A stretch of DNA of 21,124 nucleotides, from positions 1 through 21,124 of IMG/VR virus record IMGVR_UViG_3300021092_000248. One strand, written 5' to 3'. Source of the DNA: a virus. Each line of letters starts with the position of its first letter. Position 1 is the stretch's first letter. A program made the position numbers and the translations under genes. Positions 3,600 through 18,921 of this stretch are shown in pieces. The notes under the pieces are model-generated. The model saw only the letters and a program-made list of their open reading frames with translations. It had not been told where the DNA came from and searched no databases.

Positions 3600-4016
3600 T
3601 TATTTAGAATATTGATTGGTAATTTTATTATGCTCTTGCATTCCTGCGGGAGTCCACCAACCAGAAGCAAGTGTTGATATTGATGTTGCAAGAATTGCCA
3701 ATATAACTCCACACCCTATTGTCATCCATTTAATCTTTTTAATTTCTTTGATTTCATTTTCAATGTCAGACATTCTATGAGATACTAGAGAATGTTCTTT
3801 ACTATTTTCATCTTTCAAATCATCAATCATCTTAATAATAAGATTATCAGATTTATTACATTGCTCGATTCTTTCTTCATGAACAGCAAGCATTTTGCTG
3901 ATGTTTGAATTTACATCACTTAATTTTGAAATTGCATCATCTATCTTAGAAACAAAATTGGCAAAGTCCAAAAGCTTTTGCTCAAGAACTGCTATTTTTA
4001 CTGATTCATCTGACAT
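3600..4016 (-). CDS. XhlA-like coiled-coil protein with C-terminal membrane segment
   Basis: The 138-residue protein has a long heptad-rich helical region (about residues 5-100, with AVLEQKLLDF and SKMLAVHEERIEQ). One hydrophobic segment, MTIGCGVILAILATSISTLA, follows at about 103-122, and then a short polar tail. This layout resembles the hemolysin XhlA family and a conserved cyanomyovirus protein, both tied to lysis or membrane association. The family assignment is from remembered pattern, not a search. The start is uncertain. ATG 4016 has AGAAG upstream and fits the family's usual MS start. GTG codons at 4052 and 4043 are also possible; the latter has AGAGAGG eight bases upstream, and both fit better the short leader expected from the late promoter at 4087-4094. 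Confidence 0.7.
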   Translation of the reverse strand: MSDESVKIAVLEQKLLDFANFVSKIDDAISKLSDVNSNISKMLAVHEERIEQCNKSDNLIIKMIDDLKDENSKEHSLVSHRMSDIENEIKEIKKIKWMTIGCGVILAILATSISTLASGWWTPAGMQEHNKITNQYSK

Positions 4017-9246: not shown

Positions 9247-9275
9247 ATTATAAAACCCACTCAACTCAAAGTCAA
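9247..9275 (-). promoter_or_regulatory. sigma-70-type promoter for the tRNA gene
   Basis: On the minus strand TTGACT (9270-9275) is followed after 17 bases by a perfect TATAAT (9247-9252), placing the start at about 9240, just before the tRNA. The -35 box lies in the left arm and loop of the terminator hairpin of the upstream gene. The spacer consists of the right arm and T-tract. Confidence 0.8.
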
Positions 9276-9282
9276 GTGGGTT
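9251..9282 (-). terminator. intrinsic terminator of the 234-aa gene, overlapping the tRNA promoter
   Basis: In the minus-strand RNA, AACCCACUUGAC pairs with GUUGAGUGGGUU (12 bp, two G-U) around the loop UUUGA. UUAUAAU follows. The hairpin lies 25 bases beyond the stop of the gene at 9307. The T-tract is short, so efficiency may be moderate. Confidence 0.75.
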
Positions 9283-17315: not shown

Positions 17316-17321
17316 ATTATA
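17316..17321 (-). promoter_or_regulatory. TATAAT -10 box of hsp20
   Basis: A perfect TATAAT on the minus strand lies about 60 bases before the hsp20 ATG, giving a leader of roughly 54 bases. No consensus -35 is found 16-18 bases upstream (ACCCCA at 17 bp). The promoter may need an activator or be recognised by a modified polymerase. Confidence 0.5.
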
Positions 17322-17362
17322 CAACATCTCATAAAAAATGGGGTGTTGAACTCCCTACTTTA

Positions 17363-18355
17363 TTATTCGGTTATACCAAATACAATATTAAGAGAAGAAT
17401 TGAGTGTTCCTCTATTCTTATATTCCTTTGCCACTTTATCCCACCCATTACCAACTTTTGATCCCGTTTCATCATTCATATACTTATCAATCCAATAAAG
17501 AAGGTATGATACTGTACGATCCATATTATCCCATCGAGTATCTTTGCAGATATTAGAATCCTTAAACATACCACCAGTTTTCCAGGTTTCAGTGATATGA
17601 GTTAACCCATCCCATTCATCCCCATAGGTATTTCCTACACCTTTTTCAATCAATTCCCACAGTTTACGAAGTTTTTGATTATTAGGTCCATAGTAATAAA
17701 GAGACATAAGAGCAGCGGCAATAAATGGTTGGCACCATCTATCCTTTCTCACCATAAGTTCATCAAGTGCTTGAAGACATCCTTTAATCATCCAAAAAGA
17801 AAGTTGATCACGAAGTTGTTCAGCATTCTTTACATTTGACTGATTCCATTCCGTTGGTTTCATAAAGTGACAAGCCTTATTCATGCCAGAAAGAATGATT
17901 CCTTTAGAAAGTTTTTCATTCTTTGGAGTGTAATCATAAAATCCAGTAAGAATACCATAAACTTTCTGCTGATTTTTTTCCATTGCTTCAGCAGAATCAA
18001 AAGTATCATAAGATTGTTTAATCTGATCAAGATCTTCATACTCATAAGTAATAGAAACTAACTTCTGGGGAAGATAATCAGATCCTTCTTTTTCCCAATT
18101 CAAAGCCCTGGTATTTCCGTCCACCCTAAACACCATGCCTTTTGGATACAATTTTCCAGATACAGTACAGTTTTTGGTAAGACGAACTAAATGAACAACA
18201 CAATGTTCTGGTCTAACTTGCTTAAGATGTCCTCTAGCCTTACTCAATCGTGCTTCAGTATCTCTTTGACAAGGAACTTCTGGCAAATTTAAAAAATCTT
18301 GCAATGAATAGTTGCAATTTACAGTAATGTTGCTTGTAAAATCTTTTGTTTCCAT
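17363..18355 (-). CDS. ParB/sulfiredoxin-fold-like phage protein
   Basis: The 330-aa protein has an N-terminal domain reminiscent of ParB/Srx proteins. A VPCQRDTEARLSKARGHL segment (about 27-44) is followed by VVHLVRLTKNC, a G-x-Y-x-G turn and VFRVDGNTRALNW (D79-G-N-T-R83). The last corresponds to the DGxxR phosphate-binding signature. TYEYEDLDQIKQSYDTFDSAEAMEKNQQ follows, where the acidic/DS pattern suits the helical part of the fold. The C-terminal ~190 residues are helical with Trp-rich stretches (KDTRWDNMDRTVSYLLYWIDKYM) and no motif I recognise. Relatives may bind or cut DNA, or hydrolyse nucleotides; none of this is shown. It stands apart from regA by a terminator and has its own strong sigma-70 promoter and a structured 80-base leader. 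Confidence 0.6.
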   Translation of the reverse strand: METKDFTSNITVNCNYSLQDFLNLPEVPCQRDTEARLSKARGHLKQVRPEHCVVHLVRLTKNCTVSGKLYPKGMVFRVDGNTRALNWEKEGSDYLPQKLVSITYEYEDLDQIKQSYDTFDSAEAMEKNQQKVYGILTGFYDYTPKNEKLSKGIILSGMNKACHFMKPTEWNQSNVKNAEQLRDQLSFWMIKGCLQALDELMVRKDRWCQPFIAAALMSLYYYGPNNQKLRKLWELIEKGVGNTYGDEWDGLTHITETWKTGGMFKDSNICKDTRWDNMDRTVSYLLYWIDKYMNDETGSKVGNGWDKVAKEYKNRGTLNSSLNIVFGITE

Positions 18356-18383
18356 TTTTTTAAATTAAAATTAATAAACAATT

Positions 18384-18415
18384 CACTGACCATGAGGAAA
18401 GTGCTGCTATTGCAG
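18384..18415 (-). other. structured leader of the ParB-like gene (two small hairpins)
   Basis: In the leader RNA CUGC-AAUA-GCAG (18404-18415) is followed at once by CACU...AGUG with an inner CC/GG (18384-18403). The ATG at 18355 has no Shine-Dalgarno upstream, only A/T-rich sequence. The hairpins may help stabilise the message or control its translation. Nothing else is seen in 18356-18438. Confidence 0.35.
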
Positions 18416-18438
18416 GGAGTTTATCAGTTTACTTAAAT

Positions 18439-18467
18439 ACTATAAAATAAAAAAAGAGAGTTGTCAA
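18439..18467 (-). promoter_or_regulatory. sigma-70 promoter of the ParB-like gene, inside a terminator
   Basis: On the minus strand a perfect TTGACA (18462-18467) is followed after 17 bases by TATAGT (18439-18444). The -35 is the centre of the regA terminator hairpin and the spacer contains its T-run. The predicted start near 18432 leaves a leader of about 77 bases. Confidence 0.8.
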
Positions 18468-18474
18468 CTCTCTT
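18448..18474 (-). terminator. intrinsic terminator of the gp44-dam-62-regA operon
   Basis: On the minus strand AAGAGAGTTG and CAACTCTCTT form a near-perfect palindrome around one A (18454-18474). Seven further bases of T-rich sequence follow. It starts just six bases after the regA stop codon. Confidence 0.88.
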
Positions 18475-18480
18475 AAAAAA

Positions 18481-18921
18481 TTATTCTGGTTCTACTGGTT
18501 TCCCTTTCTTACCAATATTATACTTCTGCTCTAAAATCCAATCGCCTTTATCTTTATAGGCAAGAACTTTAATTTGGTTAAGGGGTGCGATGTCCGCAAT
18601 AGAATCCTCTTTGACCACCGTAATCAATCCCCAATCACAAAGAAGTTTTGTAATTCTATTTCTTCTTTGTAAATCATTTATTGTCAGATTTGCGTGCTTA
18701 CCATCCAGAGCAAACAACTCTTTAAAATGGACAATATAATATCTACCTTGCTTATGGAGAATATGACAAGATTGATAAAGTTTTTTCTCCTTTCTTGACG
18801 CAACTCCAATGCGAGTCAAAGTTTCACGAACCTTCAAAAAATCATCTGGTTCATTTAGAATGATTTCAACCATCATATCGGAAGACCAGTTTACTTGAGG
18901 TTCAATTGTTTGATTAGTCAT
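18481..18921 (-). CDS. regA: RegA translational repressor
   Basis: Binds ribosome-binding regions of early phage mRNAs and blocks their translation. In T4 its targets include its own message and clamp-loader messages. The 146-aa protein shows the family core: VEIILNEPDDFLKVRETLTRIGVA, LYQSCHILHKQGRYYIVHFKELFALDGK, NDLQRRNRITKLLCDWGLI and DWILEQKYNIG. These match T4 RegA (122 aa) across nearly its whole length. An extra 15-residue N-terminus (MTNQTIEPQVNWSSD) precedes the usual start, with Met-Met at 16-17 as an alternative. A short tail (KKGKPVEPE) extends the end. The start overlaps the gp62 stop as ATGA. A terminator lies six bases after the stop. Confidence 0.96.
   Translation of the reverse strand: MTNQTIEPQVNWSSDMMVEIILNEPDDFLKVRETLTRIGVASRKEKKLYQSCHILHKQGRYYIVHFKELFALDGKHANLTINDLQRRNRITKLLCDWGLITVVKEDSIADIAPLNQIKVLAYKDKGDWILEQKYNIGKKGKPVEPE

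Follow-up and report, generated by a model that had tools for sequence, protein, structure and literature searches.

A putative nested terminator-promoter with its -35 hexamer at the hairpin tip, downstream of regA in T4-like cyanomyoviruses

The window, a virus record of 21,124 bases treated as an entry of IMG/VR, has on its minus strand genes of the T4-like cyanomyovirus type, and S-SKS1, S-SCSM1 and P-TIM68 are among its nearest named relatives. The gene of the translational repressor regA (18481-18921, minus strand; Pfam PF01818, E=5e-44) is followed by a gene for a 330-aa protein (17363-18355, minus strand), which matches phrog_2615, of unknown function. The initial annotation called this downstream gene ParB-like, a label that is not supported: the protein has no Pfam match, and a ParB/sulfiredoxin-type domain was not found in it. 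Between the phrog_2615 gene and hsp20 lies a hairpin with a T-run and a TATAATTAGTA box (17316-17355, minus strand), within which the identity with the IMG/VR contig L577 ends.

In minus-strand letters, the gap between regA and the 330-aa gene reads TTTTTT AAGAGAG TTGACA ACTCTCTT TTTTTATTT TATAGT. It contains AAGAGAGTTGACAACTCTCTT (18474-18454), then TTTTTATTT, then TATAGT. Hairpin scans, RNA folding and compensatory stem turnover in 22 unique relatives identify a terminator hairpin, AAGAGAGTT-GAC-AACTCTCTT, at 18454-18474 of the minus strand, which would end the regA transcript. The RNA folds into 9 bp, of which only 3 are G-C, with the loop GAC, at -9.2 kcal/mol (z = -3.6; 0 of 200 shuffles equally good). 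The -35 hexamer TTGACA occupies the hairpin tip (18462-18467, minus strand). The T-run TTTTTTTATTT (18445-18455, minus strand) coincides in the sequence with both the U-tract of the terminator and the spacer of the promoter, and the promoter scan places the -10 hexamer TATAGT (18439-18444, minus strand) after a spacer of exactly 17 nt. The initial annotation had proposed this terminator/sigma-70 composite, with the T-run inside a 17-base spacer and TATAGT next, and it is correct to the base (TTGACA at 18467-18462, TATAGT at 18444-18439). It had also put TTGACA at the exact centre of the palindrome. TTGACAA is indeed exactly symmetric around the hairpin centre, but the hexamer TTGACA lies half a base off it.

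Both halves of the element have the expected make-up. The -35 and -10 hexamers of a sigma-70 promoter are present at a 17-nt spacing (16-18 nt in the relatives), with 11 of 12 hexamer positions matching, the joint-highest score in the scanned region. As in an intrinsic terminator, a G+C-containing stem lies directly before the U-tract, and its pairing is conserved by compensatory change. The T-run is absent from the opposite strand of the hairpin, indicating that the terminator is one-way. L577 has the identical composite sequence, which rules out an assembly slip. The T4-like late promoter TATAAATA is not matched, the window having TATAGTAT at 18444-18437, and a late-promoter identity of TATAGT was rejected for its poor fit to the late box. 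Two more sigma-70-like sites with 11 of 12 matches lie on the minus strand without a hairpin, at 16596-16568 and at 13544-13515, the second within the DNA polymerase gene.

A second composite at 9247-9281 (minus strand), found by scan and fold, consists of a 12-bp terminator-like hairpin whose 5' arm contains TTGACT, with TATAAT 17 nt on. It ends 10 nt ahead of tRNA-Ala and has a near copy in contig L058. The initial annotation ascribed the same design to it. The composite is real (9281-9247), and the two composites of this 21-kb fragment of a phage genome share no stem letters, but its TTGACT is located in the 5' arm and not in the loop.

With hairpin programs that work by consensus, we scanned for terminator-like hairpins that enclose a TTG-containing -35 and are followed by a -10 after 16-18 nt. 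The scan found 22 composites across the 740 kb of 82 related loci, versus 1-5 in each of ten dinucleotide shuffles. For stems of at least 7 bp with at least 11 of 12 hexamer matches, the count against shuffled sequence that had been proposed along with the composite gives 16 in 0.69 Mb of related contigs and 0 in 8.29 Mb of dinucleotide shuffles. IMG/VR, which is redundant, was scanned for TTGACA-TTTTT-TATAAT with free spacing and with one anagram control, TAGTCA. Among the matches listed, TTGACA lies within a terminator hairpin in 34 of 121 strings, with stems that are nearly all different, and the spacer is 17 nt in 85 of 121; the anagram gives hairpins in 5 of 119 and a flat spacer distribution, with 12 of 119 at 17 nt. 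In genomes of bacteria and archaea, the TTGACA pattern has a 17-nt spacer in 79 of 120 of the matches listed but is nested in only 3 of 120, with weak hairpins (Fisher p about 1e-8). A shared spacer peak with few hairpins in bacteria indicates that the promoters are of the ordinary sigma-70 type and that the nesting is virus-enriched. Among the matches listed, contigs that encode T4-like marine proteins are over-represented in the nested cases (28 of 34 versus 29 of 84). Scans of the T4, HTVC008M, S-SSM7 and Syn9 genomes gave no convincing nested case. That promoter-like letters fell on a terminator by accident, as AT-rich DNA might allow, would agree with the overall number of promoter-like matches in the window, which is not above shuffles (74 versus 76.8), but this explanation has next to no chance of being right and is refuted by the shuffle, anagram and orthologue counts, the nested combination being far above shuffles, above the anagram control and conserved orthologously with compensatory stems.

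Relatives of the site were sampled by the downstream protein and not by the element, so the sample was not chosen for the element. A hairpin and T-run precede the gene in all 23 relatives with readable upstream DNA. The layout is nested in 22 of the 23, with TTG inside the hairpin (as TTGACA, TTGACG, TTGCAA or a further variant) and a -10 following after 16-18 nt. The -35 is weak in several relatives, reading TTGCAA or TTGTAA in six and TTGCGA or TTGCGC in two more, and the element of contig L592 has no -35 TTG. In the 12 columns that precede the -35, agreement among the 22 unique elements is only 36-64%, while TTG is kept at 95% and, in the -10, T1, A2 and T6 at 100% and T3 at 95%. The downstream proteins are mostly 84-100% identical, and the stem letters are nonetheless unrelated. 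The mean hairpin score is 18.4 for the elements' own arms versus 7.5 with the arms swapped among relatives, and the real mean was reached in 0 of 20,000 permutations. Conservation therefore covers the pairing, the tip letters and the -10, but not the letters of the stem. Recurrence far above shuffled sequence, with stems that are unrelated both at this orthologous position and across cyanomyovirus-like contigs, supports the earlier suggestion of a repeated solution instead of a copied repeat.

The palindrome is almost perfect and has the -35 at its centre, and the gene behind it may encode a regulator; this would also suit a protein-binding operator, for example for autoregulation by the downstream product, in place of a terminator. 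An operator would keep its letters, whereas the 22 relatives keep the stem pairing and not the letters, and in every case a T-run is present on the 3' side and not on the other. Kept pairing with changing letters is what is predicted for a terminator and a promoter that share their DNA, unlike a protein operator, which the stem turnover disfavours and which we consider very improbable. Selection seems to hold stem pairing, tip -35 and -10 simultaneously. The homologues of the downstream protein in cultured phages (S-RIM8, ACG-2014d; 44-49% identity) are located elsewhere, without the element or the RNA leader described below.

Covariation among the relatives reveals a three-way-junction RNA leader at 18372-18426 of the minus strand, composed of helices P1 (18426-18419/18379-18372), P2 (18415-18412/18407-18404) and P3 (18403-18384). 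It is common to the relatives (contig L584 at 3910-4002, and others) and spans from just past the -10 to the start codon. In the alignment of 19 pairs, 97.2% of the cells are paired, compared to 26-43% in slid controls, and 8 pairs have two-sided changes, versus a shuffled mean of 4.3. Rfam contains no match to the leader at gathering or relaxed thresholds, and the leader was not found in seven complete cyanomyovirus genomes or in 80 regA loci; among the sequences searched, it occurs only ahead of the phrog_2615 gene. The covarying leader is a candidate new cis-regulatory RNA. The promoter predicts a transcript start at about 18431-18433. The conserved RNA begins right at the 5' end expected from the promoter, which lends independent support to a transcript start here.

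These observations bear on the possibility that the terminator alone works, with the TTGAC of the loop being tolerated or an RNA feature and the gene being expressed via readthrough or from a phage late promoter. The TTGCAA variants among the relatives would be in keeping with this, as would those regA junctions that have a hairpin and a TATAATTA or TATAAATA box instead. It would not explain, however, why T1, A2 and T6 of the -10 are invariant at 16-18 nt, why the spacer peaks at 17 nt as in bacterial promoters (among the matches listed), or why the leader begins at the expected start point. As TATAGT is, in addition, a poor late box, we regard a terminator acting alone as improbable.

We consider it likely that the 36-bp element is a nested terminator-promoter that shields an inserted early cassette from the neighbouring replication operon and supplies it with its own promoter, as the PeSLs discussed below do in other T4-like phages. 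A polymerase coming from gp44-gp62-regA would transcribe the hairpin and the U-tract and stop there. As double-stranded DNA, the same bases would present both promoter hexamers to a sigma-70 polymerase of the host type, with the -35 at the tip of the hairpin and the -10 immediately behind the U-tract. A separate early transcript would then start near 18432 and comprise the structured leader followed by the phrog_2615 cargo gene, which is inserted between regA and hsp20. It is the resemblance to sigma-70 promoters that suggests the early timing. Marine cyanomyoviruses have no alt, modA, modB, motA or asiA homologues and are thought to run their early genes on the unmodified host polymerase (PMC2984593). 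Cyanobacteria lack Rho according to PMC13289151, by whose title canonical mechanisms account for only a minority of operons in these bacteria. In hosts without Rho, hairpin terminators would be a natural choice.

The overlap of the two signals could also serve regulated readthrough, in which a sigma-70 polymerase or another factor at the nested promoter alters termination by roadblock, occlusion or hand-off, so that each half would control the other. This would extend the nested terminator-promoter reading and does not exclude it. The physical overlap makes interference unavoidable, and E. coli polymerase can stay on the DNA after termination and restart at nearby promoters (PMC6978380); in the window, the promoter closest to a terminating polymerase would lie beneath it. 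A plain additive stop-and-restart fits the sequence equally well, though, and regulated readthrough seems to us conceivable but rather unlikely. It is an equally tentative idea that the nesting is functional in itself: a terminating polymerase left on the promoter might restart, or a promoter-bound polymerase might enforce termination, which would couple the output of the inserted gene to the flow through the replication operon. If true, cyanophages would use nesting as a hand-off device in hosts without Rho. The element provides a natural test bed for the question whether polymerase, once terminated, is used again at a promoter that overlaps the terminator.

That no established description of such a layout existed for phages, as the initial annotation supposed, proved mistaken. 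PeSLs (promoter-early stem-loops) of T4-like phages were reportedly published by Arbiol et al. in 2010 (10.1093/gbe/evq006) and Comeau et al. in 2014 (10.1093/gbe/evu129), and KVP40 has seven nested hairpins. PeSLs figure as 'composite conserved promoter-terminator motifs' of T4-like phages in PMC4503421 and PMC5931544, and their low density in cyanophage S-PM2 is discussed (PMC4503421). PeSLs join a sigma-70-type promoter to a terminator stem-loop within a short intergenic cassette at variable-gene junctions of T4-like phages, and the window likewise has both within one short intergenic element. In RB49, a terminator hairpin and T-run are followed by a separate TTGACA about 12 nt on, whereas the -35 of the cyanophage form is inside the hairpin; RB49 was rejected as an example of the same nesting, since its -35 follows the T-run. 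RB49 copies are also recognisably related, while the cyanophage stems are unrelated and the copies few (0-4 per genome). T4-like KVP40 has AAAGGGTTGACnnnnGTCAGCCCTTT and TATTAT or similar, the -35 being inside the terminator hairpin and the -10 about 18 nt on. Its seven nested hairpin-promoters are near-identical and lie on the plus strand (21144, 59696, 85856, 97797, 100191, 121374, 150224). They differ from the cyanophage form, with its -35 at the tip, in that TTGAC is in the 5' arm, the stem letters are common to all copies and the U-tract is short. In the haloarchaeal virus HGTV-1, most ORFs in one half of the genome are preceded by a TATA-like box with an inverted repeat, a motif that the authors liken to PeSLs (PMC3950731); HGTV-1 is a different virus with an archaeal promoter type.

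Several sequence-related copies per genome, a feature of PeSLs, were found neither in the 21-kb fragment of the window nor in complete relatives, which contain 0-4 composites each at a score of at least 10, with mostly unrelated stems. Because these sequence-related copies were not found, we do not file the cyanophage element as a PeSL member. Judged by its sequence, it would function like a PeSL, with the -35 at the tip, the U-tract as spacer and unrelated stems. The composite promoter-terminator idea is already known; the tip-placed -35 with unrelated stems is a new variant. An abundant group of marine phages would in this way compress a transcription stop and a transcription start into about 36 bp, and the layout gives a simple sequence rule by which inserted early genes and the borders of transcripts can be located in marine phage contigs that lack annotation.

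Other cyanomyovirus regA/hsp20 junctions have a terminator followed by a promoter-like box (TATAATTAGTA or TATAAATA) in the same place. They differ in that a -10-type box stands alone, is late-promoter-like and follows a hairpin without a -35; a late-promoter-like box of S-PM2 is NATAAATA (PMC2984593). A terminator-like hairpin follows regA in 41 of 80 regA loci; 6 of these are nested sigma-70 composites, and 34 have the late-like box. In relatives without the phrog_2615 gene, the usual order after regA is hairpin, T-run, TATAATTA or TATAAATA-like box and hsp20, and the hairpin type found at 17316-17355 of the window directly follows regA. At 5 of the 6 nested regA junctions, extra genes precede hsp20 or fill the available sequence. 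The cargo is a gene of 349 aa, one of 345/347 aa (at two loci), a pair of 88-aa and 592-aa genes, or a pair that by eye resembles restriction and methylation genes. In cultured P-SSM2, the nested element lies at the regA stop codon (142801), ahead of purL; S-SKS1, also cultured, carries nested elements at 28035 and 33272. From base 1 of L577, the window and L577 are identical across regA and the gene for the 330-aa protein; the identity breaks off sharply at window 17342/L577 2034, inside the next terminator hairpin, and hsp20 is only 53% identical. This break is suggestive of a recombination joint at the stem-loop, and the junction pattern would fit a gain and loss of gene cassettes at stop/start elements. 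Recombinational exchange of gene modules is a trait of PeSLs, and the varying cargo together with the break is suggestive of it here.

In contig L075 (10500-11800), the regA-hsp20 cargo behind the nested element looks by eye like a restriction-modification pair. A conserved motif of the type GTGCC-ATTCGTGC-GGCAC...GTCGGAAC between regA and the terminator is present in L014 (449-545), L004, L026, L054 and about 20 other regA loci. Located after the regA stop, it forms a hairpin with possible downstream loop pairing and has no above-threshold Rfam match. By their coordinates, the nested elements of P-SSM2 (142801), P-TIM68 (152765) and S-PM2 (124309) contain the upstream TGA stop codon inside TTGACA/T, so that stop codon, terminator and -35 share bases. 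In S-PM2 (124309) and Bellamy (184228), the nested element lies directly ahead of a high-light-inducible (hli) gene.
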